Assembly (NCBI GenBank): GCA_003167365.1
Contig: PMTM01000006.1
Location: 330,391 to 394,390, forward strand
From: Spartobacteria bacterium
GTDB lineage: Bacteria > Verrucomicrobiota > Verrucomicrobiia > Chthoniobacterales > UBA10450
Length of the DNA stretch: 64,000 nucleotides
Direction of reading: 5' to 3'
This document shows positions 36,134 through 55,175 of this stretch, piece after piece. Numbering within the stretch: position 1 is the first letter of the stretch; every line of letters starts with the position of its first letter. Position numbers and translations under genes: made by a program. The notes below the pieces were generated by a model. It was given only the letters and a program-made list of their open reading frames with translations. It was not told the DNA's origin and did not search any database.

Positions 36134-38188
36134 ATGTCTCGTCAATACACACTGCAGCGCGCGCCAACCTCGTCATCGATTCACATCGATTATGCGGCGG
36201 AGCTGAATGAACAGCAGTTTGCGGCCGTGACGGCGGCGCCCGGTCCGCTGCTGGTGATCGCGGGCGCGGGGAGCGGGAAAACGCGCACACTGACCTATCG
36301 CGTCGCTTATCTCCTCGAAAACGGAATTGATCCGCGAAATATTTTGCTACTCACGTTTACGAACAAAGCCGCGCGGCAAATGCTCGATCGCGTGGCCAAT
36401 CTTTTGCCGATGGACGCGAGCGGAATCTGGGGTGGAACGTTTCACTCGATCGGGAACCGCATGCTGCGGCGGCACGGCAGTGCGATCGGTTATCCAAGTG
36501 GTTTCACCATCATGGACCGTGAAGATCAAAAAGATTTGATCAACGCGGTGGTGGCGAGCGCGGGAATCGATCCGAAGGAAATTCGTTTCCCGAAAGGCGA
36601 CGTGCTCGCGGATATTTTTAGCTTTGTCGTGAACACCGAGAAACCGATCGAGGAACTGCTTGCGGAAAAGTTCCCGTATTTCCTGCCGCTGCTCGAACGA
36701 ATTAAGGACGTGCAGCAACGTTACGAGAAAAAAAAGAAATCAACCAACTCGGTCGACTTCGACGATCTGCTCGAAAAGACATTGTCGATGTTGCAGCAAC
36801 ACGAAGGGATTTGCTCGTTTTATCGCCGGCAATTTCAATTCATCCTGGTGGACGAGTATCAGGACACGAACAAGATCCAGGCCGATTTCATCGACACGCT
36901 GGCCCTCGATCACAAAAACGTCATGGTCGTGGGCGACGACGCGCAATCGATTTACTCGTGGCGCGGCGCGAACTTCCAAAACATTCTCGAATTTCCGAAA
37001 CGTTATCCCGGCGCGCAGGTTTTTAAGATCGAAATGAATTATCGAAGCGTGCCGGAGATTCTCGAAGTCGCCAACGCCGCCATCTCGGCAAACGTCCAGC
37101 AATTCCGCAAGAGTCTGAGCCCGACGCGCGAATCGAACGCGGTGAAACCGGCGGTCGTCGCGCTGAATGACGGCAGCGAGCAAGCGCAATTTGTCGCGCA
37201 ACGCATTCTCGAGCTGCGGGATGAAGATGTCGATCTTAGCGACATCGCGGTGCTCTATCGCGCGCATTATCACGCCGTCGAACTGCAACTCGAATTGTCG
37301 CGCCGTGGCATTCCATATCAAATCACGAGCGGCATCCGCTTCTTCGAACAGGCGCACATCAAGGATGTGACGTCATTCGTCCGCGTCGTCGCGAACCCGC
37401 GCGACGAAGTCGCGTTCAAGCGGATGGTGAAACTGCTTCCCGGCATCGGCAATCGCAGCGCGGAAAATTTATGGAATGCCTGGGACAAATCGCTCGGTAC
37501 TGTAGCCGCGAGCGCTGATCGCGGTTCCGAAGATGTAACAACACCCACCGGGATCGGCGATCCCGGCTACAAGTTTGGCGAGCGCATCCTGGCTATGAAT
37601 GTTGGCGCGAGATCGAAAAAGTCGTGGAGCCAGCTCGCGCACACCCTCGATGAGATTGCGCCGGGCGGGCAGCCGAATCCGCCGTCGGAGATGATCACAT
37701 CGATCGTCGAAGCAATCTATGACGATTACGCAAAGGTGAATTTCACGAACTACGAGCTGCGTCGTGAAGATTTGAATCAACTCGCCGTTTTTGCACGCCA
37801 ATTCAAAGACATCCACGAATTCCTTTCGCAGCTGGCACTCATTAGCAACGTCGATGCGGAAGCGGCCCCGAACCAAGCCGGCGAAAAAGAGGCGGTCAAT
37901 CTGTCGTCGGTTCATCAAGCGAAGGGACTCGAGTTTCACACCGTGTTCGTAATCTGGCTCAGCGACGGAATGTTTCCGAGCGCCCGCTCGCTCGACACGC
38001 GTGACGCTCTCGAAGAGGAGCGGCGCCTCTTCTACGTCGCTGTCACGCGCGCACGAGACGAACTTTATTTGACCTATCCGCACATGCGTCTGAACGCCGG
38101 TTACGGCGAAATGTTGCAACGGCCGTCGCGTTTCTTAAAAGAAATTCCAAACGCGCTCGTCGAAGACTGGCAGGTTCGAAAAGGGTGA
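36134..38188 (+). CDS. UvrD/PcrA-type ATP-dependent DNA helicase
   Basis: A 684-residue superfamily 1A helicase. Motif I AGAGSGKT near 43, motif Ia LTFTNKAA, motif II DEYQDT near 232, motif III GDDAQSIYSWRGA, motif IV NYRS, motif V VHQAKGLEF near 590 and motif VI VAVTRARDELYL near 636 are all intact. Such enzymes unwind DNA in excision and mismatch repair and remove proteins from forks. The 2B domain carries an insertion around 455-480. It could be PcrA, UvrD or Rep. Confidence 0.92.
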   Translation: MSRQYTLQRAPTSSSIHIDYAAELNEQQFAAVTAAPGPLLVIAGAGSGKTRTLTYRVAYLLENGIDPRNILLLTFTNKAARQMLDRVANLLPMDASGIWGGTFHSIGNRMLRRHGSAIGYPSGFTIMDREDQKDLINAVVASAGIDPKEIRFPKGDVLADIFSFVVNTEKPIEELLAEKFPYFLPLLERIKDVQQRYEKKKKSTNSVDFDDLLEKTLSMLQQHEGICSFYRRQFQFILVDEYQDTNKIQADFIDTLALDHKNVMVVGDDAQSIYSWRGANFQNILEFPKRYPGAQVFKIEMNYRSVPEILEVANAAISANVQQFRKSLSPTRESNAVKPAVVALNDGSEQAQFVAQRILELRDEDVDLSDIAVLYRAHYHAVELQLELSRRGIPYQITSGIRFFEQAHIKDVTSFVRVVANPRDEVAFKRMVKLLPGIGNRSAENLWNAWDKSLGTVAASADRGSEDVTTPTGIGDPGYKFGERILAMNVGARSKKSWSQLAHTLDEIAPGGQPNPPSEMITSIVEAIYDDYAKVNFTNYELRREDLNQLAVFARQFKDIHEFLSQLALISNVDAEAAPNQAGEKEAVNLSSVHQAKGLEFHTVFVIWLSDGMFPSARSLDTRDALEEERRLFYVAVTRARDELYLTYPHMRLNAGYGEMLQRPSRFLKEIPNALVEDWQVRKG

Positions 38189-38195
38189 AACGGAT

Positions 38196-38590
38196 TTGGC
38201 CACGGATTTACACGGATGGAACACGGATAAGATGCTGGAAGTTGATGAATCAGGAGAGGGCAAGCTTCTGCACGAGAGCACAACCAGCAGGATCATCGGT
38301 GCGGCATTCGAGGTGCATCAACAACTTGGATATGGATTTTTAGAGCGAGTCTATCAACGCGCGTTGCAGGTAGAATTGCTTCGGCGCGGCGCTACGGCTG
38401 AGATCGAAAAGAGAATCCAGGTTCAATACAAAGGTGTCGTTGTTGGCGATTACGATGCTGATTTAATTGTAGATGGCTGCGTCGCCGTTGACATCAAGGT
38501 CGCCCCTCAATATGGCAAACGCGATGAAGCTCAATTATTAAACGAACTCAAAGCCACCGGCCTGAAGAGTACAAGCGGCTGATTTTCTGA
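38196..38590 (+). pseudogene. GxxExxY protein with internal C-terminal deletion
   Basis: A GxxExxY (PD-(D/E)XK-like) gene. IIGAAFEVHQQLGYGFLERVY carries the GxxExxY motif near residue 46, and DADLIVDGCVAVDIKV the nuclease-like Asp...Asp-x-Lys. The reading frame stops at 38582 after LKATGLKSTSG. In the next frame the canonical family ending EYKRLIF plus stop follows at once (38567-38590), so about a dozen residues with a non-multiple-of-three deletion were lost between them. The gene begins inside the left inverted repeat and ends at the right one. Confidence 0.72.
38199..38230 (+). repeat. Left inverted repeat of the GxxExxY element
   Basis: Starts GCCACGGATTTACACGGAT and continues to ACACGGATAA. 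Over 30 bases it differs at one position from the reverse complement of 38591-38620. It encodes the apparent N-terminus (ATDLHGWNTDK) of the GxxExxY frame. Confidence 0.85.
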
Positions 38591-38620
38591 ATCCGTGTTT
38601 CATCCGTGTAAATCCGTGGC
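38590..38620 (-). repeat. Right inverted repeat of the GxxExxY element
   Basis: Reverse-complement partner of the left repeat, 29 of 30 bases identical. It begins at the last base of the shifted-frame stop codon and ends 3 nt before the malQ ATG. Together the two repeats bracket a segment of about 420 bp. Confidence 0.85.
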
Positions 38621-38623
38621 TTA

Positions 38624-40321
38624 ATGAATCTTTCGCCGGAAAAAAAGATTGCGGGCGTACTCGTGCCGTTGTTTGCCTTGCGCAGAGAGAACGATCTCGG
38701 AATCGGCGATATCGCGGCGCTGCGTGAGTTTATCGACTGGGTGGCGAAGAGCGGGTTCAAACTGGTGCAGCTCCTGCCGATCAATGAGATCGGCGGCGAC
38801 AACAGTCCGTACAACACGATCAGCGCGATGGCGATCGAGCCGACGACGCTGCACCTCGCGCCCGGCAGTCCGGAAGATTTAACGTTGGAAGATTTTGATT
38901 CCGCGCTTGCCGAGGTCGATCTTCCCGATCTTCGTCGAGGGCCGGTCAAATATCCGCGCGTCAAGACACTGAATCGGCATTTGCTGGAAAAGGCTTTTAG
39001 CCGATTTAGCGATCGCGCGAGCGAAGACCGACGACTGAACTTCCGAAAGTTCTGCGAGGAGGAGCGCGCCTGGCTCGACGATTACGTTTTCTTCCGTGCG
39101 CTCATGGAAGAAAATGGTGAGAAGGAAAATTGGGACGAGTGGCCGCCCGAACATCAGTCGATCGAAACTGCGCGGAATTGGTTTCGCGAGCTGCCGTTAG
39201 ATCGACAATCGGTTTTTACAGGCCGGCAGAAGTTCTTTCGTTACGTGCAATGGATTGCGCACGAGCAATGGCGCGAAATCAAATCGTTCGCCGACGAACG
39301 TGACGTGGCGCTGATGGGCGACATTCCATTCGGCGTCAGTTATTACAGCGCCGACGTTTTTTCACGGCGCGCAGAATTTGCACTTGATTGGTGCGGAGGC
39401 GCACCGCCGGAACCCTATTTCAAGGAGGACAAGTTTACCCAGAAGTGGGGGCAGAACTGGGGCATTCCACTTTATCGCTGGGACAAGATGCGCAGCGGAA
39501 ATTTCGAATGGTGGCGGCAACGGGTGCGCGGCGTGAAACAGATATTTCATCTTTTCCGCATCGATCATATTCTTGGTTTTTATCGCGTTTACGCATTTCC
39601 GTGGCGGCCGAGGCGAAACAAGCGGTTTCTTCATTTTGATTGGAAAGAGATGCTCGGACGGACCGGCGGCCGTGCGCCGCAGTTCACGCCCCGCGATGAT
39701 TCCACACCGGAGAGTTGCGAAGCGAATCGCCGCGAAGGCGAAGAATATCTCCGCATTGTCCTTCAAGAGTCGGGCAGCACGCGCGTGGTGGGTGAAGATC
39801 TCGGGACCGTTCCGGACTACGTGCGACCGAACCTGCAATCGCTCGGCGTCGCCGGTTTCAGAATTCCGCAATGGGAAGTTTATCACGGCCGCGTGACGCC
39901 GGGCCGGGAATATCATCGGCTGTCCGTCGCCACTTACGCGACGCACGATCACAAACCGATTCGGAAATTATGGGAGGAAGCGGTCGAGCGGGCAACATCG
40001 ACCTCGGACCAGGCGCGAAACGAGTTAAACAAGATTGCTGAGTTCGCGCAGTTTCATCCCGGTAACGAGCTGGTCAGCTTCGCGAAAGATTTTTATCCCG
40101 CCATCATGGAAGCGCTTTTTGCGTCCGATTCCTGGATTGCGGTTGTCATGCTCACGGATCTGCTACGGAGAAAATATCGCTTCAATGTTCCCGGGACGGC
40201 CGCAAATTTCAATTGGACGCGGCGGGTGCAGCGAACAATCGCGCAGCTCAGTTCCAGTCGAACGGTGCGCGGACAAATGCGATTGATCCGCGGGTTACTC
40301 GAGAAAACGGGACGTTGCTGA
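38624..40321 (+). CDS. malQ: 4-alpha-glucanotransferase (GH77)
   Basis: A 565-residue amylomaltase that transfers maltooligosaccharide units during glycogen or maltose metabolism. VQLLPINEIGGDNSPYNTIS near 47, GDIPFGVSYYSADVF near 230, FRIDHILGFYRVYAFP near 310 (nucleophile Asp), VVGEDLGTVPDYVR near 388 (acid/base Glu) and ATYATHDHKP near 437 (stabiliser Asp) are diagnostic. Length is usual. The ATG is only 3 nt past the inverted repeat, so that repeat occupies its leader region. Confidence 0.93.
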   Translation: MNLSPEKKIAGVLVPLFALRRENDLGIGDIAALREFIDWVAKSGFKLVQLLPINEIGGDNSPYNTISAMAIEPTTLHLAPGSPEDLTLEDFDSALAEVDLPDLRRGPVKYPRVKTLNRHLLEKAFSRFSDRASEDRRLNFRKFCEEERAWLDDYVFFRALMEENGEKENWDEWPPEHQSIETARNWFRELPLDRQSVFTGRQKFFRYVQWIAHEQWREIKSFADERDVALMGDIPFGVSYYSADVFSRRAEFALDWCGGAPPEPYFKEDKFTQKWGQNWGIPLYRWDKMRSGNFEWWRQRVRGVKQIFHLFRIDHILGFYRVYAFPWRPRRNKRFLHFDWKEMLGRTGGRAPQFTPRDDSTPESCEANRREGEEYLRIVLQESGSTRVVGEDLGTVPDYVRPNLQSLGVAGFRIPQWEVYHGRVTPGREYHRLSVATYATHDHKPIRKLWEEAVERATSTSDQARNELNKIAEFAQFHPGNELVSFAKDFYPAIMEALFASDSWIAVVMLTDLLRRKYRFNVPGTAANFNWTRRVQRTIAQLSSSRTVRGQMRLIRGLLEKTGRC

Positions 40322-54228: not shown

Positions 54229-54632
54229 GCGGGCGGCAAAGATTACATCCGGCAGAGAGAGGGGCAAGCGCGCCCGGCAAATTTGTTTGGCCACGGATGA
54301 ACACGGATAAGAACCAATCTGTGTTTCATCCGTGTTGATCTGTGGCAAGGCCTCTATTCGAGGATCCGATACAGGTGGAGAAAGCAGAGCGGCTGAGACA
54401 GCCGCCGCTACATCGATCAATCAGGAATTTAGGAAAGCAGGAAAAGGACAATCTTCCGCTTAGATCCTGTGTTCCTGCTTTCCTGATTCGCTATTTCTAC
54501 AACTACAAAGCGACTGAGACAGCCGCCTCTACACCGGCAGATCAATTAGGAATTTAGGAAAGCAGGAAAAGAAGAACTTGGCGCTCAGATTCCTGTGTTC
54601 CTGATCCGCCGTCTGACACAGACGGCCTACAA
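54229..54632. repeat. Repeat cluster between tRNA-Thr and pal
   Basis: About 400 bp with no gene. 54290-54346 is a gene-free version of the CCACGGAT inverted repeat: CCACGGATGAACACGGAT, an 8-nt or so spacer, then its near complement. 54379-54633 holds two tandem modules of about 125-130 bp, each with a CTGAGACAGCCGCC hairpin, then AGGAATTTAGGAAAGCAGG and its partner TGTGTTCCTG. A third hairpin, CCGTCTGACACAGACGG, ends the cluster. Confidence 0.7.
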
Positions 54633-55175
54633 CTATTTGATGACGCCGACTTCGGCGCGGCGGTTCTTGGCCCAGGCCGATTCGTTTTGGCCGGAATCGG
54701 CGGGCATTTCCATGCCGAAGCTGACGGTTTGAATACGGCTGGCATCGACGCCTTGGGAAATTAGGGCTTCGCGGACCGCGCCAGCGCGTCGATCGCCCAG
54801 GCCGCGATTGTATTCGGCGGTGCCACGGTCATCGGTGAAGCCGGCAATAATAATTTCGGGCGAACCGTTTTTCATGAAGTTGGCGATCTCCTGAATTTTG
54901 CCGCTCTCGGCGGAGCGAATCGACTGACTATCAAAGTCAAAGTAGATCGGATGGAATTGACCACGTTGAACGTTGCCTCCGAAAAAGGAAGTGCCTTCGC
55001 GCCGTTCGGGCAACGGCGTGCCGTTGACGTAATCGCCAGTGGTGCCGACATCGGAGCCGCCGCGGTTGCTGGTTCCTTTTTGTCCGCAGCCGGTGCTGCC
55101 GAAAAGAAGAGCGAGAAATGCAATCGACGAGAGAAGATTGAGTGGGTGTCGATCTGACCGCGGCGATGTCGTCAT
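54633..55175 (-). CDS. pal: Peptidoglycan-associated lipoprotein (Pal/OmpA family)
   Basis: A 180-residue lipoprotein. Signal and lipobox FGSTGCGQ (Cys about 30) are followed by an OmpA-like domain (about 75-180): PIYFDFDSQSIR, IIIAGFTDDRGTAEYNRGLGD with the Asp and Arg that bind diaminopimelate, ISQGVDASRIQTVSFG and KNRRAEV. Pal links the outer membrane to the wall. No tolB or tolA is adjacent, which is unusual. Confidence 0.88.
   Translation of the reverse strand: MTTSPRSDRHPLNLLSSIAFLALLFGSTGCGQKGTSNRGGSDVGTTGDYVNGTPLPERREGTSFFGGNVQRGQFHPIYFDFDSQSIRSAESGKIQEIANFMKNGSPEIIIAGFTDDRGTAEYNRGLGDRRAGAVREALISQGVDASRIQTVSFGMEMPADSGQNESAWAKNRRAEVGVIK

Follow-up and report, generated by a model that had tools for sequence, protein, structure and literature searches.

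A broken GxxExxY gene between inverted tandem-word arms, and gene-free hairpins of the same words, suggest a nuclease-fold protein partnered with a mobile repeat family

The window (the whole 64,000-nucleotide stretch of DNA analysed here) carries a small gene of the GxxExxY family that, with the inverted repeats bracketing it, fills the space separating UvrD-like and MalQ-like neighbours, together with gene-free hairpins of the same and of another word family some 16 kb downstream. Its features of interest are as follows.

36134..38188, plus strand: UvrD/Rep-like helicase, upstream neighbour (open reading frame; name from sequence reading)
38199..38228, plus strand: left arm, made of three words in tandem, GCCACGGATTT-ACACGGATGGA-ACACGGAT (repeat comparison, 64-kb scan)
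38232..38582, plus strand: GxxExxY (TIGR04256, PF13366 PDDEXK_3) pseudogene, C-terminal strand region gone (open reading frame, profiles, alignment)
38564..38570, plus strand: 37-bp out-of-frame deletion relative to L105, the uvrD-malQ copy of genome G011 (alignment)
38591..38620, minus strand: right arm, the left arm inverted, 29/30 identical (repeat comparison, 64-kb scan)
38624..40321, plus strand: MalQ-like 4-alpha-glucanotransferase, downstream neighbour (open reading frame; name from sequence reading)
54290..54346, unstranded: gene-free hairpin of the window element's word family, CCACGGATGAACACGGAT ... ATCCGTGTTGATCTGTGG (sequence search, folding)
54420..54488, unstranded: gene-free hairpin, CAGGAAAG word family (sequence search; folding z −3.90)
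54543..54606, unstranded: second CAGGAAAG-type hairpin, weaker (folding z −1.71, with 11/200 shuffles equal, which is weak)

The element at 38199-38620 is the window's strongest local inverted repeat, being the sole one with a score above 32 and a spacing below 650 bp in a scan of the full 64 kb; when extended to 38194-38228 and 38591-38625, its arms were 91% complementary across 35 nt in a repeat search. It begins right behind the stop codon of the UvrD-like gene, and the start codon of the MalQ-like gene lies 4 bp beyond its right arm. The first-pass annotation had reported the 29-of-30 match between the two repeats, which was borne out, and had the gene begin inside one of them, which holds for the mechanical reading frame (38196-38582, opening with TTG at 38196) and not for the likelier start, an ATG at 38232 that follows the left arm by four bases on its inner side and matches the apparent start in same-site relatives. 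Family membership was clear (TIGR04256, 98.6 bits against a curated cut-off of 35, E = 2.9e-28; PF13366, 95.4 bits against a curated cut-off of 22, E = 3.9e-27), and a scan to E = 1 found no Pfam family besides PF13366 in the window reading frame. A second correction concerns the integrity of the gene: the frame covers only positions 2-98 of the 116 in the profile, and because 37 bp were lost out of frame relative to L105 and the frame ends early, the window copy is a pseudogene, probably a dead source beside surviving offspring. The gene-free hairpin at 54290-54346, which had been noted as the same repeat words meeting without a gene, does exist and folds stably as DNA (minimum free energy −18.3 kcal/mol, z = −5.35, equalled by 0/200 shuffles). 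The CAGGAAAG word of the neighbouring hairpins also brackets L015, another GxxExxY gene of the window's genome. Rfam gave tRNA-Thr alone as structured RNA in the window, with rRNA absent.

The arrangement proved to be general. All four GxxExxY genes of the window's genome, where repeats were located by pattern search, are intergenic and lie between inverted arms, each with a word of its own (CCACGGAT, ACAGGATTA, CCGCGGATTACGCGGATT and TCAGGAAAGCAGGAAA). A single 30-bp repeat common to all GxxExxY genes was therefore rejected, with four genes of one genome carrying four words and the arm word varying from locus to locus elsewhere. When the flanks of each locus were shuffled 60 times, the arms scored above every shuffle at 66/73 GxxExxY loci in relatives and at 65/78 loci across many phyla (a cross-phylum set drawn from one protein clade), as against 4/94 control stretches taken 500 bp downstream. 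Left flanks compared with the reverse complement of their own right flanks gave a median score of 40 (74 loci of the window's genome and its relatives), whereas mismatched loci gave a median of 18 and distal flanks at most 27, the background level; this own-flank excess also held across phyla, including an archaeal Methanophagales record. Measured from outer edge to outer edge, the elements had a median length of 473 bp (quartiles 461-505), and their arms consisted of about three tandem words of 8-11 bp, with the best lag falling at 8-11 bp in 113/120 loci. GxxExxY genes were also found in eight plasmid records, all predicted to be non-mobilizable. At three loci of the window's genome (L013, L014 and L017), a short palindromic insert, CCCGCCACGGCGGGCAGG or a close variant, was nested inside the arms.

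We assessed whether the words vary with the proteins that they enclose. Word similarity climbed with protein identity (Mantel r = 0.37, with 0/2,000 permutations as high), and the correlation was still positive for pairs below 55% protein identity, the link fading below about 50%. At 60-70% protein identity, the k-mer cosine of the arms was 0.263, as against 0.084 for the outer flank and 0.094 for the inner side; plain co-inheritance would keep arms, outer and inner DNA alike, so the arms are constrained beyond mere co-inheritance. When the relatives' loci were compared with those of the cross-phylum set, how similar the proteins were did not predict how similar the words were (rho = 0.10, P = 0.44), so that an extension of the link to distant clades was not supported.

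The nuclease-like core that had been attributed to GxxExxY proteins was supported by structural prediction. An AlphaFold2 (AF2) model of a relative (L292, with 54 relatives in the alignment) reached a pLDDT of 95.7, and its structural neighbours were PD-(D/E)XK nucleases, the best being the Cas4-like SSO0001 (Z = 9.2, r.m.s.d. 4.0, 99 residues), followed by the restriction-endonuclease-like 3ijm (Z = 7.8) and archaeal Hjc (Z = 6.6), matches that, lying below Z = 8, indicate a nuclease fold and no more. The predicted model combines the fold of the PD-(D/E)XK superfamily with its E, D and (D,E)xK pattern; across 17 sequences, G19, E22, Y25, D61 and K73 were invariant. Because the E of the GxxExxY motif, a D, the E/D-x-K and a Q are all conserved, the protein is likely to be an active nuclease. 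A sequence search gave no solved structure of a family member at a useful E-value, and Foldseek alone gave zero matches under 1e-3.

With neighbouring genes as anchors, we surveyed two sites across the family, in about 60 genomes. Between uvrD and malQ, a GxxExxY gene with CCACGGAT/CCACAGAT-type arms was present in 21/46 resolved genomes, and the others held a gene-free hairpin of a different word, a different repeat or nothing; genome G047 retained a 148-bp remnant of the gene-bearing form, produced by internal deletion. Between gyrB and gyrA, eight genomes carried a GxxExxY gene with GACAGGAT arms, and G001 had a gene-free GACAGGAT hairpin at the same position, so that filled and gene-free forms occur at one orthologous site. 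GxxExxY genes thus occupy the same sites across genera, and intact copies at the two sites had median dN/dS values of 0.09 and 0.11, with synonymous sites near saturation. The gene-bearing form is thus an old one that has stayed where it is. The earlier idea, of a repeat-associated element that can be filled or empty, is supported as regards the arms and the two forms, but the gene-bearing form is not hopping. Two other repeats were seen in these gaps. A gene-free hairpin, TGACGAATGACGAA...TTCGTCATTCGTCATT, was abundant in both (for example, at L128, L137, L144, L200, L208 and L215), its TGA often doubling as the upstream gene's stop codon, and in some genomes (L122, L127 and L182) the uvrD-malQ gap held yet another repeat, GTCATTCCGAGCGAAGC..GTCGAGGAATCTC, which has an inverted partner.

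It is the gene-free hairpins, and not the gene-bearing form, that are dispersed. They measure about 50-180 bp, have the same arms as the gene-bearing form and are intergenic, most of them within a few bases of the end of an open frame and 16/30 sites lying between co-directional genes. Among the CCACGGAT pairs listed, spacing was two-peaked, with 35 pairs up to 180 bp, too short for the gene, and five at 419-459 bp, all of which enclose a GxxExxY gene; separately, one CCACGGAT pair (G021:C200:45-333) had its words 288 bp apart, a size between the gene-free and gene-bearing forms. That most repeat copies are gene-free had been listed beforehand as a possible refutation, but it is what a non-autonomous population predicts. 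Copy number followed the gene: CCACGGAT-type sites numbered 3-39 where the matching gene was present and mostly 0 where it was absent (P = 8e-5), and GACAGGAT sites 21-51 with the matching gene versus mostly fewer than 10 without it (P = 3e-4), in tests on the family genomes of the 39-genome set that counted broken genes as present, ignored shared ancestry and used gene status assigned by the author from the gene, flank and site surveys. Five genomes were word-rich and lacked the matching gene, namely G014 (16 CCACGGAT), G006 (20 GACAGGAT and zero GxxExxY genes), G003 (20), G018 and G020; recent gene loss is possible in G014, G006/G018 and G020, since their congeners carry the gene. The comparison of syntenic sites that the first-pass annotation had proposed revealed presence and absence of gene-free hairpins between congeners. 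Among 19 sites of G018, the hairpin at the L302 site was absent in four congeners; at the L304 site, one congener was empty, one had the same kind and four had a hairpin of another word (ATTGCAGA); and the L312, L314 and L315 sites had empty congeners as well. These comparisons established no target duplication: at L304, an apparent AAATG stood on both sides of the hairpin, confounded by overlapping stop and start codons.

The same genomes hold a second protein family with the same design. Genes for four-helix-bundle proteins (TIGR02436, IVS-type; L048-L077, from the 39 relatives) lie between inverted arms of tandem 7-bp words, each locus with its own (for example, GTTGAGG, ATTGCAG or GTCAGAA). 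Flank scores exceeded the cross-locus 95th percentile at 25/30 of these loci, identity at lag 7 was 0.66 and word similarity again followed protein similarity (Mantel r = 0.41); gene-free hairpins of this type of word exist too, at the L304 and L315 sites. To our knowledge, no enzyme activity has been reported for the four-helix-bundle protein, and finding its genes in the same design favours a shared process with no need for this nuclease, which is the strongest objection to the mechanism preferred below. The two proteins may each bind hairpins of their own word as its partner, or a third process may carry both as cargo.

Among known systems, RAYT/REPIN (REPtron) and TIRYT/TIRtron systems join a small gene of nuclease type to flanking repeats of its own, which are inverted pairs that form extragenic hairpins of a type specific to the gene; the RAYT gene stays unamplified at fixed sites while the repeats are dispersed, with more repeats where the gene is present (PMC3116915, PMC8049555, PMC3733652). 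GxxExxY genes are likewise flanked by a paired repeat with gene-free copies of the same words elsewhere, their repeats are inverted doublets forming intergenic hairpins and the gene sits unamplified at fixed sites across genera, making RAYT/REPIN the closest system in way of life. Yet the GxxExxY protein is of the PD-(D/E)XK type, not an HUH/Y1 tyrosine transposase, the arms listed show no GTAG tag by inspection, and these arms consist of tandem short words, both of them lying near the gene in an element that measures about 470 bp. The GxxExxY system would thus work like RAYT/REPIN without being a member of it, since the HUH/Y1 protein and the GTAG tag are absent and the repeats of RAYT-type genes differ. 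In layout, the nearest counterparts are the intervening sequences (IVSs) of 23S rRNA with S23p (four-helix-bundle) genes, in which a small gene likewise lies between terminal inverted repeats in about 430-470 bp, and of which the Coxiella example has tandem heptameric repeats upstream of its open reading frame (PMC4990558). The window element differs from these in lying between uvrD- and malQ-like genes, outside rRNA, in encoding a protein that is not S23p and in having words mostly of 8-11 bp rather than 7. Like MITEs, GxxExxY elements have gene-free derivatives with inverted arms, including one internal-deletion intermediate (G047, L196), but unlike MITEs they have no DDE transposase. The family description (TIGR04256/PF13366) is silent on flanking repeats, and a full-text literature search, with subscription journals and preprints outside its scope, found no description of the association.

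Because the same hairpin also turns up without the gene at scattered places in the genomes, the GxxExxY gene looks, from sequence comparison, like the protein partner of a mobile repeat family. On balance, we think it probable that the two form a selfish or domesticated system with a RAYT/REPIN-like way of working, built on a PD-(D/E)XK nuclease. One part would be the small GxxExxY protein, encoded between the arms of an element that is about 470 bp long and keeps to one intergenic site, and the other the gene-free hairpins, a population that shares these arms, is scattered in intergenic space and often sits right after stop codons. The protein may recognise the arms, whether in duplex, cruciform or single-stranded hairpin form, and may cut at them, and such cutting would spread and maintain the hairpins, the gene product mobilising the gene-free copies now or having once done so.

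That the hairpins might instead spread by replication template switching, a reverse transcriptase or another transposase, with GxxExxY and four-helix-bundle proteins as cargo that aids host tolerance, is an unlikely alternative in our judgement, although it would accommodate two unrelated protein families, one of them not known as an enzyme, in the same kind of element, hairpins of either kind or none at one intergenic site in congeners (L304), and the existence of orphan hairpin populations. It sits poorly with words that track protein lineage and with periods of mostly 8-11 bp for GxxExxY versus 7 bp for the four-helix-bundle genes, and co-variation of a cargo with the arms, but not with adjacent sequence, would not be expected. 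A host function, with gene and hairpins as a domesticated regulatory or DNA-maintenance pair that, for example, processes transcript hairpins or resolves intergenic cruciforms and moves slowly as a by-product, would agree with dN/dS values of about 0.1 and site conservation across genera, with hairpins at stop codons and commonly between co-directional genes, and with a predicted fold near Holliday-junction resolvases; we nonetheless regard it as improbable, given the element-like patchy distribution, frequent pseudogenes and losses (the window copy included) and hairpin insertion polymorphism. This reading is compatible with the two-part system rather than exclusive of it.

Little weight can be given to the idea that the arms belong to a transposase of the RAYT/TIRYT type (HUH, Y1) that acts in trans, with GxxExxY incidental. 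Y1_Tnp genes occur in 36/39 of the genomes, and there are published RAYT-like genes, the TIRYTs, whose long terminal inverted repeats are unrelated (PMC3733652), but tandem words were found beside none of 30 Y1_Tnp loci of the same genomes, which carried other repeats where they carried any. RAYT-type genes (L339-L352 and L363) had long double palindromes at their flanks, for example AATAGCCCAGCGCTTTAGCGCTGGG...GTCCCGTCAGGGACGAAAG, and RAYT repeats were rejected as the source of the arms for the 30 loci because their flanking repeats differ. Chance, in the form of common low-complexity words around the gene, has a negligible claim: the words are indeed simple and purine-rich, but the controls already refute it, with 4% of control stretches against 83-90% of GxxExxY loci above every shuffle, reversed-pattern controls nearly all zero and distal flanks at background.

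More tentatively, and at slightly under even chances, the two-part system may belong to a general class of element, spread over many bacterial phyla and archaea and defined by the co-evolution of a small protein with a tandem-word hairpin, with a PD-(D/E)XK branch (8-11-bp words) and a four-helix-bundle branch (7-bp words). Such a class would explain many so far unexplained short-word intergenic repeats and make 23S rRNA IVSs a special case, and the 7-bp arms of the four-helix-bundle genes may bear on the unexplained heptamer repeats of cyanobacteria, Beggiatoaceae and the Coxiella IVS. GxxExxY proteins are found in very many genomes and lack an assigned function; should every one of them prove to be partnered with a hairpin repeat of its own, the family gains a testable function, and a widespread class of short-word intergenic repeats gains a likely origin. 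The RAYT/REPIN way of life would then have arisen two or more times, from nuclease folds that are not related, and the many natural words that go with related proteins would offer a ready data set on the reading of DNA or hairpins by a minimal PD-(D/E)XK protein. Within the window, a mixed hairpin cluster lies beside the tRNA-Thr gene (54393-54640), comprising the CCACGGAT type, two hairpins of the CAGGAAAG type and copies of GCTGAGACAGCCGCCGCTAC that resemble the repeats next to the Y1_Tnp gene L363.
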